Shown one piece after another: positions 1,309-57,697 of a stretch of 64,000 nt of DNA (its first letter is position 1; the number at the start of each line of letters is the position of its first letter). Location of the stretch: the NCBI GenBank assembly GCA_010671905.1, contig JAAHII010000001.1:3472001-3536000 (forward strand), in the 5' to 3' direction. A model generated the notes under the pieces. It made no database searches. It saw only the letters and a list, made by a program, of their open reading frames with translations, and had not been told where the DNA came from. Position numbers and translations under genes: made by a program. The DNA is from Leptolyngbya sp. SIOISBB (lineage in GTDB: Bacteria > Cyanobacteriota > Cyanobacteriia > Phormidesmidales > Phormidesmidaceae).

Positions 1309-2661
1309 TTACCTTGCGCCTGTGATCGATAACGCTTCCAACAGCACCGAGGGGGTAAAACAAGCGCCGTTCCAATCAGCGTCCTGGCCGATCGCCTGCA
1401 GATTCATCAGGGCCGTATAAACATTCCCTGAAACCATCGTATCTTTTACCCGTCCCTGAATGACGCCGTTGACGACTCGATAGCCGAGGTCAATATTGAT
1501 CGAAAAGTCGCCAGAAATGCCTGCAGTTTCTCCTAAAATCTGATCGATGACGATCGCATCGTCGAGTTGTTGCACGAGCTCCGTAAAGGTCTGCGGCCCT
1601 GGCTGAATCAAGGTATTAAACAAGCCTGGAGTTGGAGCACTGCCCAAACCTGGCCGAAAGCCGTTGCCAGTAGAACCGCCTCCGAGTTCTTTACCCACGG
1701 TGAGATCGGTGTAAAACAGCCGCAGGATGCCCTGATCGATGAAGATCAACTTTTGGGTAGAGGTGCCCTCGTCATCAAAGGGACAGCTGAAGGGGCCGAT
1801 ATCGGGATCTTGATAAAGGGTGAGGGCTGACGAGGTGACTTGTTCCCCCAGGCGATCGCTCCAAGGTGAAGAGCCTTCTAACACGCGCTTACCACTGAGC
1901 GCTGCTTGCACTGTTCCCCATAGCGTGTCTGCTGCTTTGGCCGTGAATAAGACCGGTGCCCGACCAACGATCGGCTCAACGTTCTGCTCCGCCCAATGCA
2001 GGCGCTTCAAGATCTGGTGGGCGAGGGCTTCTGGAGAGAGGGCGTCACGTTTGACCTGTCCGTCGCCGACACTCAAGAAGTCGTCACCACGGACCCACTC
2101 AACGCCCAGATAACTGCTCAGGGTGGTATCGCTGTAGCCGTAGTCCAGCCCACGGGAGTTCACAAAACGAGTGGTTTCAGTGTCACATTCGAACTCGGCC
2201 TCGCAGATCACCTCAGGATACTGATCGCGAATCAGGGCGATCGCGATGTTGCCCCACTCAATCATTTGCTCGACCGCAACGGCCTGCCCAACATCGGGAA
2301 AATTCTGAGGCGTCCCGGCACTGAGCTCGATCGGTTCGGGATCATTGAGCTGGCTAATCGCGATCGCCTTATCCACTAAAGCTTGGGCCGTGATAGGGCC
2401 ATGAGCGACCGCAATCCCTGGGCGACCTTCATGCCAGAGCCGCAATGCCGTACCTTCTAAGTTATTGCTTTCTAACTGTTTGAGGCGATTGGCTTCAAAA
2501 AAGACAGGATGGGCCGACGAACTGGACTGAAACACTTCCGCTGCTTCGGCGCCCGCCTGCTTTGCCAACTCTAGCAGTTGTTCTGGCAAGGTGTTCCAGT
2601 TTGCCTCTGCCCCCATACTGCGTGCGCCAATCCCAAACCGTTTTTGATATCTCTCTATCAT
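1309..2661 (-). CDS. pmbA: PmbA/TldE-like metalloprotease-family protein
   Basis: A 450-residue member of the TldD/PmbA (TldE) family, cytoplasmic proteins that act as a TldD-TldE heterodimer to degrade or trim peptides. The length and the C-terminal block around residues 385-425 (GISGDFSINI, then GYRVVNG and KDTMVSGN) fit the family. I see no HExxxH zinc motif, which TldD carries and PmbA/TldE lacks, so this is the PmbA-type partner; no TldD gene is in the window. An alternative ATG lies at 2616 (MGAEANWN) and is equally plausible because no strong ribosome binding site separates the two. Single-gene unit. Confidence 0.85.
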   Translation of the reverse strand: MIERYQKRFGIGARSMGAEANWNTLPEQLLELAKQAGAEAAEVFQSSSSAHPVFFEANRLKQLESNNLEGTALRLWHEGRPGIAVAHGPITAQALVDKAIAISQLNDPEPIELSAGTPQNFPDVGQAVAVEQMIEWGNIAIALIRDQYPEVICEAEFECDTETTRFVNSRGLDYGYSDTTLSSYLGVEWVRGDDFLSVGDGQVKRDALSPEALAHQILKRLHWAEQNVEPIVGRAPVLFTAKAADTLWGTVQAALSGKRVLEGSSPWSDRLGEQVTSSALTLYQDPDIGPFSCPFDDEGTSTQKLIFIDQGILRLFYTDLTVGKELGGGSTGNGFRPGLGSAPTPGLFNTLIQPGPQTFTELVQQLDDAIVIDQILGETAGISGDFSINIDLGYRVVNGVIQGRVKDTMVSGNVYTALMNLQAIGQDADWNGACFTPSVLLEALSITGAR

Positions 2662-16282: not shown

Positions 16283-16450
16283 TTAGCTATGGCACGTGCA
16301 GCCCGTATGACCACAGCCAGAACCTTCAGTATGGCCATTGGCACAGGCGTCGCTGCAATAGTATTGCCCCGCTTTTTCAACTGCCTTACTGGTATCCACA
16401 ATGCACAGACAAGAGTCACAAGCACATTTCATTTGAGTAACAGTCGTCAT
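16283..16450 (-). CDS. smtA: SmtA-type metallothionein
   Basis: A 55-residue zinc/cadmium-binding metallothionein, too short for routine gene calling. The sequence has nine Cys (9, 11, 14, 16, 32, 36, 46, 51, 53) and three His (40, 48, 54) in the order known for Synechococcus SmtA: KCACDSCLCIVD, then YYCSDACANGHT and GCGHTGCTCHS. It should hold a Zn4 cluster in the cytoplasm. A GGAG site lies six bases before the ATG. It is divergent from the SmtB-type repressor gene at 16618, and SmtB-like operator sequences lie between them (16485-16498 and 16514-16529), so induction by zinc or cadmium is expected. Confidence 0.95.
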   Translation of the reverse strand: MTTVTQMKCACDSCLCIVDTSKAVEKAGQYYCSDACANGHTEGSGCGHTGCTCHS

Positions 16451-16484
16451 GGTAGTCTCCTCAGCCGATAGAATGGCAGATAGT

Positions 16485-16529
16485 TGAACAGGTATTCATG
16501 GATAATATAACACTTGAATGCTTGTTCAA
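16485..16529. promoter_or_regulatory. smt operator region (two ArsR/SmtB-type sites)
   Basis: Between smtA and smtB. Site 1, TGAACAGGTATTCA (16485-16498), matches the known smt operator half-site arrangement TGAACA-N2-TATTCA apart from the two spacer bases. Site 2, TTGAATGCTTGTTCAA (16514-16529), is a second imperfect palindrome. An A/T-rich stretch (GATAATATAA, 16501-16510) between them could serve as -10 for one direction. SmtB without metal would block both genes. Confidence 0.75.
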
Positions 16530-16617
16530 GTATCTAGATACACATTCTTTAGCTCTGACTAAAATGGCTGAGCTGAAGTTGCAAGCGGTGAAGTTGCTGG
16601 TAGCGATCGACTGATTG

Positions 16618-16971
16618 ATGTCGAACTCTGAAGACAAGACGGTGCAGGCGATCGGGGTGGATGTTCCGGTTAGTGGGATTCTCAGTGTGGAAAAGGCGCA
16701 GCGGATGGCTGAGTTTTTTGGGGTGCTGGGAGACCCAAATCGCTGGCGCATTCTGTCTGCCTTGGCCTTAAAAGAATTACGCGTGGGAGAATTGGCTGAG
16801 GCAGTTGACATGAGTGAATCAGCTGTTTCTCATCAATTGAGGGTATTGCGCACGATGCGGCTCGTCAGCTACCGAAAACAGGGCCGCAGTGTGTACTACT
16901 GCCTGAAGGACGACCACATCTTTAATCTCTATCAGGAAGCCTCAGAGCACCTGGATGAACCTGACGATTGA
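16618..16971 (+). CDS. smtB: SmtB-type zinc-sensing ArsR repressor
   Basis: 117-residue winged-helix repressor. The recognition helix is MSESAVSHQLRVLRTMRLV (about residues 62-80). The alpha-5 zinc site of SmtB is fully present near the C terminus: D-x-H (DDH) followed 11 residues later by His and then Glu (HLDE), the D104/H106/H117/E120 arrangement of Synechococcus SmtB. Zinc binding releases the operator. Start is the ATG at 16618; a TTG one codon earlier also fits. It is divergent from smtA, its expected target. Confidence 0.93.
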   Translation: MSNSEDKTVQAIGVDVPVSGILSVEKAQRMAEFFGVLGDPNRWRILSALALKELRVGELAEAVDMSESAVSHQLRVLRTMRLVSYRKQGRSVYYCLKDDHIFNLYQEASEHLDEPDD

Positions 16972-45768: not shown

Positions 45769-46110
45769 CTAGGATCGCGAGGGTAAAAGCGGCTCAAGAT
45801 CATTGAGCAACTGAGGCAGGCTGGTTTGCAGCGTCGCCCAGACCCGTTTGATGTCAACATTTCCATAGTCGTGGATAAGTTTGTCACGCATCCCAGCGAT
45901 CGCTCGCCAATCAATGGCTGAATGCTGCGATCGGAACTCTGGTGACAGCCGTTTCACGGCTTCTCCCACAACGGCGATTTGATAGAGCACGGCTGACTGA
46001 GTTTTAAGATCGGTGGCAAAGTCGTTCAGGGTCAAGCCTTCCACAAATGCTAAGGCTGACTCAGCGGCCTGGGCAATATCGAGCAGCGATGCATGATCAC
46101 GCGGATACAT
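45769..46110 (-). CDS. HepT-like HEPN toxin
   Basis: 113 residues from ATG 46110 (MYPRDHASLLDIAQAAESAL). The HEPN RNase motif R-x4-6-H is present as RDKLIHDYGNVD. HepT is normally silenced by di- or tri-AMPylation by its MntA partner. The start overlaps the MntA gene by 14 bp. Lies between the NicO gene and a second copy of the NicO 3' end, in opposite orientation. Confidence 0.9.
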   Translation of the reverse strand: MYPRDHASLLDIAQAAESALAFVEGLTLNDFATDLKTQSAVLYQIAVVGEAVKRLSPEFRSQHSAIDWRAIAGMRDKLIHDYGNVDIKRVWATLQTSLPQLLNDLEPLLPSRS

Positions 46111-46426
46111 AGGTATCAGAGTAAACGACCTGAGCGGTATCGAGAATTTCGTCGCGGCGCAGCCAGTTATCGCTACTTGCAATAGCCTGTTTTTCTACCA
46201 GGTCAATATCGCGCCCCGTCAAATCCGTCAGTTCATACTCCATGTTGACGAGATCCAGCAGGGTCCAGGGAGCGTCAGGAGCGAAGGTGACGAGCACATC
46301 GATATCGCTGTCAGAATGGAAGTCGTCTCGCAAAACGGAGCCAAACAATGACAACTCCGTAATTTGCCATTTTTGGCAAAAGTGTTGAATGGTGTCGGGG
46401 GCTAGGTCAATTGGAAGACTGTTCAT
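46097..46426 (-). CDS. MntA-like nucleotidyltransferase antitoxin
   Basis: 109 residues with the minimal nucleotidyltransferase signature G-S-x10-D-x-D: LFGSVLRDDFHSDSDIDVLV (about residues 27-46). It would AMPylate the HepT toxin encoded downstream. ATG at 46426 gives the usual length. The two genes overlap by 14 bp. Confidence 0.92.
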   Translation of the reverse strand: MNSLPIDLAPDTIQHFCQKWQITELSLFGSVLRDDFHSDSDIDVLVTFAPDAPWTLLDLVNMEYELTDLTGRDIDLVEKQAIASSDNWLRRDEILDTAQVVYSDTYVSA

Positions 46427-46514: not shown

Positions 46515-46818
46515 TCTGATCATCGCGCTACTACACCAAATCACCTATGGGCTAGTGCTCATAGGTGGCTTTAGTCTTGGCTTGGCATCGGTATTCACGG
46601 CTCTAGGGTTAGCCGCCGTTTATGGACAACAGTGGCTTGAAAGTTTCCCTTTCGGTAACGGGGTGATGTAGCGGCTGTCAGTAGTCAGCGCCTTGGTCAC
46701 AATAGGCATTGGCCTCGGTTTAACAACAGTGGCATTGATGGGATGAGACGCGGGCATAGTTAGCAAAGAGGAGCAACTAGGCACTAGCATCCTGAATCTT
46801 GGCACCTATCATCTGAAC
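46515..46818 (+). pseudogene. Orphan copy of the NicO 3' end, copy 2
   Basis: About 230 bp match 45494-45740 in direct orientation: ALLHQITYGLVLIGGFSLGL, GLAAVYGQQWLESFPF, then a stop where the parent has Met-Gln, then SVVSALVTIGIGLGL. The following 70 bp, including CAACTAGGCACTAGCATCCT, recur at 53210-53277. No N-terminal half exists here. Confidence 0.88.
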
Positions 46819-46954
46819 GATGGAATGCAGCGGCAGGAGGTATCCTCGAATTCAGCATCGGAGGCGATCGTCTGTCCGCTACCATGAAGTGTTAGATTGC
46901 ATAGTCACTAGAATCACAGATCACTCAACGTGCTGCTTTTGAGTAGAAGCCGTG

Positions 46955-51299: not shown

Positions 51300-51504
51300 T
51301 CATGTTTCTACAGAATCCCAATAGCGTTTGTTATCTAGATGACACTCCTTTAGCGATGGCGGCGATCGCTTACCCATCGGGTGGGGCGTTTCCCGACATA
51401 AAGTGGAGTGCATTGGCGACAGGTGAGCTGAATGACGAGGGATAGTGCAAGATCATATCTGTGTCCCGCCTGTCATCAAGCGTCGTTTTTCATCCCCGAA
51501 TACT

Positions 51505-52020
51505 ATGGCTGCAGCCGCCTTTATCCCCGTCTCCATCACCGTTCTCACTGTCTCCGACAGCCGCACCGAAGCCACAGATAAATCGGGTCAGCTGTTGGTA
51601 GAGCACCTGCAAACCGCAGGCCACACCCTGGCTGAGAAAGCGATCGTGCCCGACAACATTTACCAAATTCGAGCCGTGGTCTCCCGCTGGATTGCCGATG
51701 CTGGGGTACAGGCCATCATCACCACAGGGGGCACGGGAGTCACCGGGCGGGACGGCACCCCTGAAGCTATTGCCCCCCTGCTGGATAAAGAACTCCCCGG
51801 CTTTGGCGAAATCTTTCGGATGGTGTCTTACCAGGAGATTAAAACTTCCACCGTGCAGTCCCGTGCCCTAGCGGGGGTGGCCAATGGCACCTACATTTTT
51901 TGCTTGCCAGGGTCATCGGGGGCTTGCCGCACCGGCTGGAATGCCCTGATTAACGACCAGCTGGATGCCCGCCATCGACCCTGTAATCTGGTGGAGCTGA
52001 TGCCCCGCCTACTGGAGTAA
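51505..52020 (+). CDS. moaB: Molybdopterin adenylyltransferase-type protein MoaB
   Basis: 171 residues from ATG 51505 ([20 protein letters not shown]). MoaB/MogA features: [75 protein letters not shown] and the C-terminal NLVELMPRL. It adenylates molybdopterin during molybdenum cofactor synthesis. Divergent from the acetamidase gene; no other moa genes nearby. Confidence 0.95.
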
Positions 52021-52166
52021 GCGGATTGACGTATCCCTCGTTGACACTCTGATGGGTTTGTCTGGCTCACTCGGGTATAGCATCTCCCTCCTGGAGAGAA
52101 CATCGCCCAGGATTCACAGAAAGACACGTTAAGAAAAGTATCTCTCCAGGATTGATTAATTTACAC

Positions 52167-52190
52167 ATTTGCGCAAATATGCAAATATAG
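52167..52190. promoter_or_regulatory. Candidate operator of the ArsR / Cys-rich peptide operon
   Basis: ATTTGCGCAAAT (52167-52178) is a perfect 12-bp palindrome, followed by a further half site ATGCAAATAT (52179-52188). It ends 5 bp before the ArsR start. Such A/T-flanked palindromes fit ArsR-type autoregulation. Confidence 0.6.
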
Positions 52191-52194
52191 ACTC

Positions 52195-52500
52195 ATGAAC
52201 GAAAAAGAGGCACAAGAGTTAGCAGATTTGCTGAAGGCGTTGGGAGAGTTTAATCGGCTTTCCCTGGTCTATGAATTGTGTCAATGCAAAGCACCTCAAA
52301 ATGCGATGTGCTTATGTGAATACTGCAGCGTGGACGCTTCTGGTGTATCGCGTCATCTGAAGGTTTTGTCGCAAGAGGGGATTGTTAGCTCCGAACGGAA
52401 AGGGCGCGAGATACAGTACTCCCTCAACAAGACTGAAGTGTTAAAGCGGCTTCGCAAGCTTATCGAGTTTATTGAAGCAGCACCATCGCTTGAAACATAG
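52195..52500 (+). CDS. Cys-rich ArsR-family metal sensor
   Basis: 101 residues. Winged helix with the recognition helix VDASGVSRHLKVLSQEGIV. A dense Cys cluster precedes it: YELCQCKAPQNAMCLCEYC (about residues 26-44), six Cys that could form a thiolate metal or arsenic site. It differs from both other ArsR proteins in the window. A tiny Cys-rich peptide gene follows 11 bp after the stop and should be its target. Confidence 0.9.
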   Translation: MNEKEAQELADLLKALGEFNRLSLVYELCQCKAPQNAMCLCEYCSVDASGVSRHLKVLSQEGIVSSERKGREIQYSLNKTEVLKRLRKLIEFIEAAPSLET

Positions 52501-52510
52501 GAGAGAAGAC

Positions 52511-52621
52511 ATGGAAAATAATACGAAAAACACGACTTGTAATTGTGATTGTGGCAATGACAAATGCTGTGAAGAAAAGACATGTGAGTGCTGTAAGGAA
52601 ACTTGCTGCTGTGGCGAGTAG
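52511..52621 (+). CDS. 36-residue Cys-rich metallothionein-like peptide
   Basis: MENNTKNTTCNCDCGNDKCC followed by EEKTCECCKETCCCGE. Eleven of 36 residues are Cys (10, 12, 14, 19, 20, 25, 27, 28, 32, 33, 34), in CxCxC, CC and CCC clusters, with no aromatic residue and no His. A GGAGAG ribosome site precedes the ATG, and the gene follows the Cys-rich ArsR gene by 10 bases. It looks like a soft-metal-binding metallothionein, but it does not match SmtA or any class I can name. Confidence 0.85.
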   Translation: MENNTKNTTCNCDCGNDKCCEEKTCECCKETCCCGE

Positions 52622-52747: not shown

Positions 52748-53083
52748 TTAATCTTGATTATCAGTTGAGTCAAAAAAGAAAAAGTCTGTTTTCTCCTCAT
52801 CGATAGCCAGATGATTTTGATAGTAATCGGCCAATTCTTGGGACGAAATTGGATGCTGAATCGGGTCATCAAAAAATGCCTTTACTCGAAGGTAGCGGCG
52901 TAGCCCAGCCGCGCTGGCATCTTCACAGGTTGCTGCCAAAAAATCCTTTGGTAAAGTGTTACTGACCTTGAGCCAAGCCGCCAACAGAACCCCTTCGATA
53001 TCGTCCGAAGGGGCTCGATCCATCAAGGACTCCAGCCCTTCTAAAATTTCAATAATGGGAATGAGTTGAGCGTCATCAAGCAT
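52748..53083 (-). CDS. Unknown small protein behind a Zur-type box
   Basis: 111 residues from ATG 53083 (MLDDAQLIPIIEILEGLESL). Helical and acidic, with ISSQELADYYQNHLAIDEEK and a Phe-rich end (DFFFFDSTDNQD). Not recognised. A TTG at 53107 would add eight residues but begins inside the Zur-type box (53106-53118). Its control suggests a role in zinc scarcity. Confidence 0.7.
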   Translation of the reverse strand: MLDDAQLIPIIEILEGLESLMDRAPSDDIEGVLLAAWLKVSNTLPKDFLAATCEDASAAGLRRYLRVKAFFDDPIQHPISSQELADYYQNHLAIDEEKTDFFFFDSTDNQD

Positions 53084-53105
53084 TGTCTTCGCTTTGTGCC
53101 ATGAC

Positions 53106-53118
53106 AATGATTATCATT
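53106..53118. promoter_or_regulatory. Zur-type box
   Basis: AATGATTATCATT, a perfect palindrome around one base, 23 bp upstream of the small unknown gene. Confidence 0.82.
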
Positions 53119-53138
53119 ACCGTATTCTTGCATGTCAA

Positions 53139-53277
53139 TGGTCAGCTTTCTGACAACAGTCTGCATTGGCTTCGGTCTGACAACAGTAGCGTTGATGGGA
53201 TAAGACGCAGGCATAGTTAGCAAAGAGGACCAACTAGGCACTAGCATCCTGAATCTTGGCACCTATCATCTGAACAA
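53139..53277 (+). pseudogene. Orphan copy of the NicO 3' end, copy 3
   Basis: Matches the end of the NicO gene (GTCTGCATTGG, then GACAACAGTAGCGTTGATGG) and continues through the same downstream block as copy 2 (GCATAGTTAGCAAAGAGG, CACTAGCATCCTGAATCTTG). Only the last ~25 codons of the parent gene are present. It directly adjoins the Zur-type box at 53106. Confidence 0.82.
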
Positions 53278-53353
53278 TCAGCATCACCGGGCCGTGACTA
53301 GCGATGCTCCACTGGGAATTGCGGCACCGACACAGTTCCGGTGCCTGCTTTTG

Positions 53354-54719: not shown

Positions 54720-55844
54720 GTGAGTCAACCTCAAACGAATCAGTCCTATGACGTTGTGATTGTGGGTGCCGGAGCGGCAGGTATCGGCTGTGGCGTCGTG
54801 CTCCAAGAACTGGGTCTAGAGCGCTTCGCAATTTTGGACAGACACCAAGTAGGAGCTTCCTTTAGCCGCTGGCCTGAGGAGATGAACTTCATCACCCCGT
54901 CATTTCCCAGTCACGGTTTTGGCCTGCTCGACCTGAACGCCGTGACCTTGAAGACCTCGCCTGCGATCGCCTTTCGCCGCGAACATATCAGCGGCAAGCA
55001 GTACGCCCTGTACTTGCAGACTGTGGCCGATCACTTTGAGCTGCCGATCCAGACAGAAGTCGATGTGCAAACCGTTGAGCCCTTGTCCCAGGGTGGCTTT
55101 ACCCTGCACACCAGCAGCGGTGAAATTTCTACCCGGTTTGTCATTTGGGCCGCCGGGGAGTATCAATATCCCCATCTCAATCCTTTTCCAGGGGCCGAGC
55201 ACTGCCTCCACAACGCTCAAATTCGGTCGTGGACAGATCTAGAGGGCGACGAATTCCTCATCATCGGCGGCTACGAAAGCGGCATGGATGCGGCGGCTAA
55301 TTTAGTGGCCCTGGGAAAGAAAGTCGGCGTGCTCGATCGCACGGGAGCCTGGGCCGATCCTGACACGGATCCCAGCGTATCTCTATCGCCCTACACCTTA
55401 CAGCGCCTGGAATTCGTCTATCGCACCGGTCGCCTGGATATGGTCAGTGACGCGCCCATCGAATCGGTCGAACCCATCCCCGGTGGCTACGCGGTCTACA
55501 GCGAATACCAGAAGTGGATGACGGCTAATCCCCCCATTCTCTGCACCGGGTTCGACACCAGCTTGAAACAGATTGCGCCCCTATTCGACTGGTCTGAAGG
55601 TTATGCCGCGCTCACTGAGAACGACGAATCCACCATCACCCGAGGTCTTTTTGTGAGTGGTCCCTCAGTCCGCCATGGCGACCTGATTTTCTGCTTCATC
55701 TATAAATTTCGCCAGCGTTTTGCCGTCATCGCCAATGCGATCGCCTATCGCCTCGGCCTCGACCCCACCCCCCTCGAAGCCTACCGTGAAGCCGGTCTCT
55801 TCCTTGACGACCTCTCGTGTTGCGATAACGACTGCATCTGCTAG
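54720..55844 (+). CDS. CzcO-like FAD monooxygenase with a C-terminal Cys cluster
   Basis: 374 residues from a GTG. FAD site VVIVGAGAAGIGCGVVLQEL (about residues 12-31) and a second site LIIGGYESGMDAAANLVALG (about 180-199), an arrangement seen in COG2072-type flavoproteins related to flavin-containing monooxygenases. The C terminus DLSCCDNDCIC is unusual and could bind metal. Substrate unknown. It leads a unit with a FeoB-like transporter behind a Zur-type box, suggesting a part in metal acquisition. Confidence 0.85.
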   Translation: MSQPQTNQSYDVVIVGAGAAGIGCGVVLQELGLERFAILDRHQVGASFSRWPEEMNFITPSFPSHGFGLLDLNAVTLKTSPAIAFRREHISGKQYALYLQTVADHFELPIQTEVDVQTVEPLSQGGFTLHTSSGEISTRFVIWAAGEYQYPHLNPFPGAEHCLHNAQIRSWTDLEGDEFLIIGGYESGMDAAANLVALGKKVGVLDRTGAWADPDTDPSVSLSPYTLQRLEFVYRTGRLDMVSDAPIESVEPIPGGYAVYSEYQKWMTANPPILCTGFDTSLKQIAPLFDWSEGYAALTENDESTITRGLFVSGPSVRHGDLIFCFIYKFRQRFAVIANAIAYRLGLDPTPLEAYREAGLFLDDLSCCDNDCIC

Positions 55845-56059
55845 CAGGTTCAGAGTTTTGAATTATGAATTATGAATTATGAATTTTGAATTCTTTTAAT
55901 CAGCCGCCAACTCAAAACTCAAAACCAAGAACTTGTAACTTTTCCCTCCCCCACTCTCCCCATCTCCCCCACTCCCCACATCACTCCTACTCCACCCTCC
56001 TACCCATCCACTCCCCACTCTCCCCATCTCCCCCACTCCCCATCTCCCCACTCTCCCTC
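55845..56059. repeat. Low-complexity spacer: ATGAATT repeats and a C/T-rich tract
   Basis: ATGAATT is repeated four times from about 55863, followed by about 130 bp of CTCCCC/CATC simple sequence. A reading frame is open through it but has no coding character; it reflects the simple sequence. The tract separates two genes of the same apparent unit. Confidence 0.7.
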
Positions 56060-57697
56060 ATGCCCACCGCCCCACCCATCCAACGCACTACCGTCATTGT
56101 CGGCAAAGAAAGCACCGGCAAGTCTGAACTGGCCGCAGCGCTCACCGGGCGATCGCCCACCAGCACTAACATTCAGGGCTCGACGATCGCCTGCGAAACC
56201 TATCAGACCCGAGACGACGTCTTTATCGACACCCCCGGCATTCTCTTTCGCTCCGACACCGCCACCACCCGCACGGCTCTAGCCCAACTCCAGACCCATG
56301 ACCGGATTTTGTTAGTCGTTAAAGCGACCCATATGGATGAGGATCTAGCGGATTTGCTGCCGCTAGTGGTCGGGAAGCAAGGACTGGTGGTGGTCACCTT
56401 TTGGGATAAAGTGCTGCCCTCTGACTTCACCCAGCAGGTTTTGGGGCGTTGGGAGCAAACCTCGCAGGTGAAGTTTATTCCTGCGGATGCTCGTCATTTA
56501 AGCCCGGATCAGCGCCAGCAGATTTTCGAAGGATTGCAGACTCCGTTCACCTTTTCCCCACAATGGCAACCGATTCCGGCGGGCTGGCGGATCGAGCCTG
56601 CGCCCACTTGGTTGGAACATCCCCGCTGGGGTGGAGTGCTGGCCATCTTATTATTGCTGTTGCCGGCGGTCATTGCCGTCTGGGTCGCTAATGGCGTTGC
56701 CGGCCTGCTCGATCCGCTGATCCAAACGGGTTTAGCCCCGCTGGTCAATGTCCTATCTCAGGCACCCTCGCTACTAGAGGCAATTTTGATTGGCCGCTAT
56801 GGCCTAGTGACGATGGGGCCGCTGTTGTTTGTCTGGGCAGTGCCGACGGTGATTCTGTATGCCCTGTTTTTAGGTGCTTATAAAGCCAGTGGTTTAGTGG
56901 AACGCATTACCGTGGCGTTGCATCCACTCCTGAGACCGTTTGGCCTCTCTGGGCGAGATTTGGTGCGGGTGATTATGGGGTTTGGCTGCAATGTACCTGC
57001 CGTGATCAGCACTCGCGCCTGTTCCAATTGCTCTCGGCAGACCTGTGTGAGTGCGATCGCTTTTGGCTCCGCCTGTTCCTACCAGTTTGGGGCCACCCTG
57101 GGGGTCTTCAGCGCCGCCAATTTACCGGGTTTAGTCGTGCCCTATCTGGGCTACTTAACCCTAACCACCCTGATCTACACCCGCCTAATTGCACCTAAAG
57201 CCGCCCGCTCAGCCCGCAACACCTTGATGATCGAACAGCGCACCTTTCTGGAAGTGCCCCGCTGGTCGGCCATCTGGCGCGAAACCCAGGGCACTCTCAG
57301 CCAGTTTTTTACCAACGCGATTCCCATTTTCTTGGTAATTACAGTGATTGCCTCGGTGTTGGACTGGTTTGGCCTCATCACCGCTTTGGCCGGATTAATT
57401 AATCCTTTGATGGGACTGTTTAATCTGCCCCCCGAAGCGGCTGTACCCGTGATTTTGGCCTCCATTCGCAAAGACGGACTGCTGCTCTTTGCCGAACCAA
57501 ACACCCTGGCGGTACTCACCCCCCTGCAAATCTTGACGGGTGTGTACCTGGCTGGGGTGTTGCTGCCCTGTCTGGTCACTGCTCTCACCATCGCTCGCGA
57601 ACAGTCGGTGCGGTTTGCGGTGGGGTTGATGGCTCGTCAGGCGATCGCCGCGATCGCGTTTTCGATGCTGTTGGCCTGGGGAGGCGGCTGGTTGTAA
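56060..57697 (+). CDS. FeoB-like GTPase membrane transporter
   Basis: 545 residues from ATG 56060. A short G-domain carries the P-loop VGKESTGKS (14-22) and G3 DTPG; the G4 motif is TFWDK rather than NxxD. The membrane part keeps FeoB features: MGFGCNVPAVISTRACSN (GxGCxxP) and Gate-like segments separated by many helices. It is shorter than FeoB (about 770 residues) and lacks FeoA. Given its Zur-type box and flavoprotein partner it may carry zinc rather than iron, which is inference. Its last codons recur at 58615. Confidence 0.85.
   Translation: MPTAPPIQRTTVIVGKESTGKSELAAALTGRSPTSTNIQGSTIACETYQTRDDVFIDTPGILFRSDTATTRTALAQLQTHDRILLVVKATHMDEDLADLLPLVVGKQGLVVVTFWDKVLPSDFTQQVLGRWEQTSQVKFIPADARHLSPDQRQQIFEGLQTPFTFSPQWQPIPAGWRIEPAPTWLEHPRWGGVLAILLLLLPAVIAVWVANGVAGLLDPLIQTGLAPLVNVLSQAPSLLEAILIGRYGLVTMGPLLFVWAVPTVILYALFLGAYKASGLVERITVALHPLLRPFGLSGRDLVRVIMGFGCNVPAVISTRACSNCSRQTCVSAIAFGSACSYQFGATLGVFSAANLPGLVVPYLGYLTLTTLIYTRLIAPKAARSARNTLMIEQRTFLEVPRWSAIWRETQGTLSQFFTNAIPIFLVITVIASVLDWFGLITALAGLINPLMGLFNLPPEAAVPVILASIRKDGLLLFAEPNTLAVLTPLQILTGVYLAGVLLPCLVTALTIAREQSVRFAVGLMARQAIAAIAFSMLLAWGGGWL

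Follow-up and report, generated by a model that had tools for sequence, protein, structure and literature searches.

A short, cysteine-rich open reading frame behind an arsR gene of Leptolyngbya sp. SIOISBB raises the question of whether so small a frame encodes a metallothionein-like peptide and what kind of unit the two genes form. The frame lies in the 64,000-nucleotide stretch of DNA that we analysed (the window, whose coordinates are used below unless another locus is named) and runs on the forward strand from an ATG at 52511 to a TAG at 52619-52621. In agreement with a preliminary description of the window, its 36-aa product, MENNTKNTTCNCDCGNDKCCEEKTCECCKETCCCGE, contains 11 Cys residues (31%), no His and no aromatic residue, and such a peptide was present in 25 of the 26 loci examined. 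The ribosome site and the 10-base gap after arsR were likewise found as described: the gap spans 52501-52510, and an AGGAG that we read as the ribosome-binding site of the peptide (52499 to 52503, + strand) overlaps the arsR stop codon and stands 7 nt ahead of the ATG. The composition is metallothionein-like, with very small size, about 30% Cys, CxC and CC clusters, and few aromatics.

Because small frames of this length are common, we considered whether this one might be open by chance. With a limit of 20 to 100 aa, 8 or more Cys and a Cys content of 25% or more, such a frame occurs in one place in the window and did not occur at all in 60 order-2 Markov windows; only this strict limit is telling, because a laxer one (6 Cys, 15%) gave 59 hits in 60 simulated windows. 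In the 204,559 bases of 23 related loci, the strict limit returned 22 frames, which were the peptides themselves, and no others; the L035 frame continues past the CCC, falls slightly below 25% Cys and so misses the limit. The related loci came from a scan of genome_contigs with a three-row ArsR alignment as the query, the patterns being taken only from the ArsR N terminus and LKALGEFN. The scan was unselective for a small peptide, since its patterns came from ArsR alone, and yet a mini-peptide with 10 or 11 Cys lay downstream at all 23 of the loci that it found (G223's locus included), either directly behind arsR or slightly overlapping the arsR end. The preliminary description had staked its reading on conservation of the frame in relatives, and in these 23 loci the frame is conserved.

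Alignment of 24 of the peptides (in alignment A3 the L013 row lacks the initial Met) revealed 10 invariant Cys residues and an eleventh in 23 of the 24. The pattern is CxCxC, 4 or 6 residues, and then CC-x4-CxCC-x3-CCC, with CxxCxC in place of CxCxC in two aligned peptides. Length ranges from 29 to 45 aa with the spacing fixed; 24 of 25 peptides have 11 Cys and one has 10, and the CCC is the exact C-terminal end in 21 of the 25 listed. His occurs in 2 of the 25 and an aromatic residue in 1. Over 25 loci, TGT and TGC are mixed at each of the 8 Cys columns of the C-terminal block, and the residues between these columns mostly drift. When the 25-residue peptide core of the window was compared with that of L013, the codon differences were 7 silent and 3 replacement, with no replacement at Cys; in the 101 codons of ArsR, 22 differences are silent and 17 are replacements. 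Judged from these alignments, the 36-aa, 11-Cys frame is a real coding sequence, and selection acts on a peptide, above all on its Cys spacing. The linkage at 23 of 23 loci, the Cys alignment, the simulated windows and the codon mixing contradict a chance open frame, and we regard its probability as negligible.

The 23 record titles cover four phyla (Pseudomonadota, Bdellovibrionota, Planctomycetota and Cyanobacteria). The Gammaproteobacteria among them include Halieaceae, Pseudomonadales, Alteromonadaceae, Woeseiaceae and others, and the remaining titles name Bdellovibrionales, Bacteriovoracaceae, Planctomycetota, one cyanobacterium and one unassigned bacterium. Because 20 of the 23 loci are labeled as metagenome-assembled genomes, any one assignment could be mistaken; the exceptions are Halioglobus pacificus, Alteromonas sp. 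5E99-2 and Cf. Phormidesmis sp. LEGE 11477. We also ran the peptide profile against the family to which the Halioglobus genome belongs, our one test that started from the peptide and did not depend on the ArsR scan; 5 of 140 genomes matched. Four of these held known loci (L018 and L020, together with L027 and L033 by identical ArsR), and the fifth held a new one, L051, in which an ArsR again adjoins the peptide.

The two-gene unit is rare, and the family with 5 of 140 is its densest group. In the cyanobacterial class, a single-sequence search detected the peptide in 2 of 388 genomes and a profile search in 2 of 378, the two carriers being the window's genome and G223. Around the Halioglobus genome, 2 of 369 genomes of its class had the unit, both known before and one of them the centre of the search; around L017's genome it was 1 of 114 across the phylum, and around L022's genome 1 of 130 across the class, in each case the centre itself. 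Each of 18 genomes tested, drawn from those of the 23 loci, carries a single copy. In the ArsR tree, a Bdellovibrionota row grouped with Pseudomonadota rows and the cyanobacterial rows stood together; in this weakly supported tree (3 of 22 inner branches starred), the grouping suggests horizontal spread of the unit. Carriage as phage cargo was considered and rejected, as neither ArsR alone nor the 25-row alignment found a relative in viral_contigs. Plasmid cargo was also rejected: 18 plasmid records match, all at less than 60% identity, and the best match covers two thirds of the query at 45%.

When the window and G141 are added, the pair is present at 24 of the 25 loci found through ArsR. The exception is G141, the third cyanobacterial genome with this ArsR (3 of 388 in the class and 3 of 63 in the family), in which the peptide was absent both from the arsR locus and from a class-wide profile search. 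Similarity between G141 and the window ends near window position 52505, immediately ahead of the peptide start, and the operator described below is present. Retention of ArsR and the operator without the peptide indicates that the peptide was lost or replaced while the sensor stayed, so that the ArsR of G141 may be useful alone or may be decaying. In the place of the peptide, at 1320-1478 (+) of L011 in this genome, is a cobalamin riboswitch (RF00174, 35.2 bits; gathering threshold, 31.5); it points at the 3' end of arsR and could be a rearrangement scar or an antisense element.

The near one-to-one linkage at these 24 of 25 loci and the single copy in 18 of 18 genomes might also mean that the peptide is a dedicated partner of the ArsR, for example one that delivers or removes metal to reset the switch, and not a metal store. 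A repressor and its sole target would be linked just as closely, however, and the non-Cys residues of the peptide drift and give no sign of a protein interface. With G141 also having the ArsR without the peptide, we consider such a partner role quite improbable.

Apart from ArsR, no protein cluster was common to more than 3 of 24 loci, and among the 25 of 121 Pfam families listed, none was found in more than 4 of the 74 neighbour frames scanned (of 81), nor did any metal-transport or ars gene among those families recur beside the pair at the 24 loci. What the loci share is therefore two genes and a switch. A short Cys-rich peptide with a conserved C terminus might be the precursor of a ribosomally made and modified metal-binding product, like methanobactin or bufferin. 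This origin is highly improbable in our judgment, as no maturase recurs among the families listed and the peptide is conserved as a whole and not as a core. A frame so short and rich in Cys, with CCC close to its end, could also be a leader peptide or attenuator, in which translation of the Cys codons would sense Cys supply or metal and control a downstream gene. Yet the frame lies downstream of arsR and has no consistent next gene (the next downstream frame of at least 110 aa, by mechanical frame calling at 23 loci, is on the opposite strand in 16 and on the same strand at 248-438 nt in 7), and eleven spaced Cys residues exceed what a leader needs; we therefore hold attenuation to be very unlikely.

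We tried to read the identity of the metal from the neighbours and abandoned the attempt, because the finds were too few to argue from. A cobW-type cluster occurs at 3 of 24 loci (with the domain confirmed for L017 and L022). Among the families listed, Fur-family frames account for 2 of the 74 scanned neighbours and ArsA_ATPase for one. A Pyr_redox_3 relative is common to the window and L022. At 54720-57697 of the window, this flavoprotein, which ends in SCCDNDCIC, adjoins an FeoB-like GTPase with Gate domains, and at 2166-4783 of L022 its relative stands beside a cobW gene, upstream of the arsR-peptide pair. These flavoprotein, FeoB-like and cobW neighbours are possibly metal-related company.

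Several other features of the surroundings are recorded here. Upstream of arsR, the window has a complete MoaB/MogA-like molybdopterin-binding gene (51445-52020); only its last 42 codons align in L013 (4782-4907, 64% identity), and L011 has none of it, a pattern that, by alignment, is one of shared synteny with decay. A 146-bp direct repeat, 86% identical, occupies 46676-46821 and 53133-53278, the second copy lying about 500 bp behind the operon. A 119-aa frame behind the operon (52748-53118, -), which had no Pfam or NCBIfam match, starts just beside AATGATTATCATT (53106-53118), a sequence that resembles a Fur/Zur-type box. At 45769-46426 (-), an NTP_transf_2 nucleotidyltransferase frame overlaps a small frame that by eye is HEPN-partner-like.

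The gene upstream of the peptide (52195 to 52500, +) encodes a protein of 101 aa that scored 25.8 bits against PF01022 (cut-off, 22) and 61.0 bits against NF033788 (cut-off, 55); by these curated cut-offs, it is a regulator of the ArsR/SmtB family. The preliminary description gave it six Cys residues, which has to be corrected to five (29, 31, 39, 41 and 44), because residue 43 (52321-52323), a Cys in the 24 other aligned rows, is Tyr in the window ArsR. C29, C39, C41 and C44 are present in all 25 aligned ArsRs, and C31 and C43 are each present in 24. The Cys-rich stretch CQCKAPQNAMCLCEYC of the predicted α2-α3 region (52279 to 52326, +) is the one that we propose as the metal site on the basis of the Cys conservation and an alignment with CadC. 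By profile, the nearest solved structures are Lmo1102 and the Cd/Pb/Zn sensor CadC, and the profile alignment places the CLC of the ArsR over the CVC of CadC, at a point where the AlphaFold2 model has no helix and low confidence. The model as a whole is of middling quality (mean pLDDT of 70.4) and leaves the Cys stretch unresolved; Foldseek matched it to ArsR-family structures, 2 of them at an E value of ≤0.001, with TM-scores of about 0.4 to 0.55. The spacing of C39, C41 and C44, CxCxxC, is one that we take to be that of the arsenite site of E. coli R773 ArsR. The predicted site is thiolate only, which points to soft metals. A three-Cys As(III) sensor, AfArsR, is described in PMC11212059 as having a site that is only partly arranged without metal.

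Cysteines in a regulator of this family could instead form a thiol switch, as in SqrR, BigR and RexT, and the locus would then be a redox or sulfane-sulfur module, with the peptide serving as a sink for thiols or persulfides. The structures that Foldseek matched to the ArsR model include SqrR and BigR, RexT, an ArsR relative, senses H2O2 according to PMC8960804, and a Cys-rich peptide could act as a thiol buffer. Against this, the dense and fixed CxCxC, CC, CxCC and CCC spacing of the peptide is typical of metal clusters and not of general thiol pools, and the CLC of the ArsR aligns with a metal-binding CVC in CadC. We consider a redox role unlikely.

The perfect palindrome that had been noted just upstream of arsR, ATTTGCGCAAAT at 52167-52178, is present and proved to be part of a larger element, the 24-bp operator ACATTTGCGCAAATATGCAAATAT (52165 to 52188, +). 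Its consensus, ATATTTGC-N8-GCAAATAT, precedes the ArsR start at all 26 loci with at least 13 of the 16 fixed positions matched, and the window matches 15; over the 26 loci together the element amounts to 35.2 bits. Of 20,000 60-mers drawn at random from these loci with the operators left in, 81 also reach 13. A dyad-symmetric sequence of the kind bound by ArsR/SmtB repressors thus stands at each of the 26 loci, where binding is predicted. The distance from the operator end to the arsR start is 5 to 7 nt in 23 of the 26; for L020, L022 and L031 the beginning of the search match was taken as the start, and by eye these loci have in-frame start codons 8, 6 and 6 nt behind the operator. Allowing one mismatch, we found the operator in the window's genome at its own site and at one other place.

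By eye, we also read a candidate arsR promoter at 52160 to 52188 (+), with TTTACA (52160-52165) and AAATAT (52183-52188) separated by 17 nt, so that the operator would overlap it. A generic sigma-70 scan did not call this site; near the operon, the generic promoter and terminator scan returned one unrelated promoter-like site and no terminator. TTGAC or TTTAC, again read by eye, stands directly before the operator in 17 of the 26 loci and not in the other 9. If this motif serves as the -35 box, the operator spans the spacer and the -10 element, and arsR would be transcribed with little or no leader.

Taken together, these results make it likely that the two genes form a self-contained, autoregulated metal-buffering unit consisting of a sensor and a metallothionein-like peptide. 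By analogy with the ArsR/SmtB family, from which we infer the cycle of repression and release, an ArsR dimer on the promoter-overlapping operator would keep the operon off until a thiophilic metal bound the Cys cluster between α2 and α3 and released the repressor. One transcript would then yield more repressor and the peptide, which, with 11 Cys and usually no His, would enclose the metal in a metal-thiolate cluster; as free metal fell, the repressor would rebind. For the metal, Cd/Zn/Pb and Cu/Ag appear about equally likely and As/Sb less so. The first group is suggested by the CadC-like Cys arrangement together with 11 Cys as in M4Cys11, and As/Sb by CxCxxC. Cu(I) is suggested by a His-free, CCC-bearing fungal metallothionein with a Cu4Cys8 cluster and by the sensor BxmR, as these are described in PMC13107397 and PMC10141476.

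The window also contains SmtA, as the preliminary description had stated. At 16283-16971 is a classical divergent SmtB/SmtA pair, with SmtA at 16283-16450 (-) and the ArsR/SmtB-family SmtB, which has a single Cys outside α3, at 16615-16971 (+); the window thus holds two different ArsR-metallothionein systems, and the single, differently placed Cys of SmtB means that the two probably answer different signals. This SmtA served as a positive control, matching PF02069 with an E value of 7.5e-26. None of the 24 peptides matched PF02069 at an E value of ≤10, the sole hit being LSR (E value of 0.15, in 13 of the 24), and in the profile comparison of the peptide with the window SmtA, 3 columns aligned at a probability of 1.2%. 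We therefore rejected the peptide as an SmtA relative, and the earlier statement that it does not resemble SmtA stands. Searches of NCBIfam and of PDB sequences gave no match either. Known bacterial metallothioneins use His and contain a zinc-finger fold (PMC10612145), whereas 23 of the 25 peptides lack His and 24 lack aromatics. The peptide probably works like a metallothionein outside the SmtA family, and the unit is probably an overlooked kind of bacterial metallothionein. The possible new metallothionein of the preliminary description gains support from the composition, the dedicated Cys-rich ArsR, the conserved operator and the lack of an SmtA match, and metal binding and metal-dependent expression are the inferred parts of it.

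Going further, we lean toward a bacterial metallothionein class unrelated to SmtA: a mostly His-free, single-cluster peptide, either M4Cys11-like or Cu(I)-thiolate, that travels between phyla in a portable two-gene sensor-plus-buffer unit, complete with a conserved operator of its own and a nearly leaderless repressor message. Among open-licence PMC papers, we recognised no prior description of the peptide, which is weak evidence of absence. By 2020, the biological function of only two bacterial metallothioneins, SmtA and MymT, had been investigated, as stated in PMC7387436. A further family, if true, would offer a very small, clean system for bacterial thiophilic-metal buffering; because the window's genome also has SmtB/SmtA, a division of labour would be testable in one organism. 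The peptide is short enough for chemical synthesis, the operator-sensor pair is a ready biosensor part, and the peptide marks genes of about 30 residues outside the Pfam and NCBIfam models.

Among known systems, SmtA, BmtA (itself of the SmtA type) and NmtA, with SmtB or AzuR, are likewise small Cys-rich peptides under ArsR/SmtB-type repressors, and control of metallothionein by this family is on record for SmtB/SmtA and AzuR/NmtA in PMC8790569. SmtA and its repressor are divergently transcribed, with the operator between the genes, according to PMC7387436, whereas arsR and the peptide gene are co-directional here; AzuR is an α5 sensor, whereas the sensor here has its Cys residues at the predicted α3. 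BxmR of Oscillatoria brevis, as outlined in PMC10141476, is an ArsR-family repressor with α3N Cys residues that senses Cu/Ag and Zn/Cd and controls its own gene and bmtA, whose product is there termed a metal chaperone. By this description, the arsR product would resemble it in α3-site Cys residues, in autoregulation and in having a metallothionein-like target, but BxmR has an additional α5 site and controls an ATPase. MymT, the copper metallothionein of Mycobacterium tuberculosis, of about 4.9 kDa, was also a small unannotated Cys-rich frame outside the SmtA type, according to PMC7558416 and PMC10141476; the likeness is one of description, and MymT is under RicR, of the CsoR family, and not under an ArsR (PMC10141476).

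CadC has a CxC in α3, as the profile alignment suggests for the ArsR here, which differs from CadC and R773 ArsR in the extra Cys residues 29 and 31 and from CadC in a shorter aligned stretch between the CxC and the recognition helix; its proposed target is a metallothionein-like peptide, whereas theirs is an efflux system. Beyond bacteria, the α domain of vertebrate metallothionein binds metal as M4Cys11 with 11 Cys in about 30 residues, much as the peptide has, and the metallothionein of Yarrowia lipolytica shares with it the CCC and the lack of His and forms a Cu4Cys8 cluster, as reported in PMC13107397; both are analogies only, with homology not expected.
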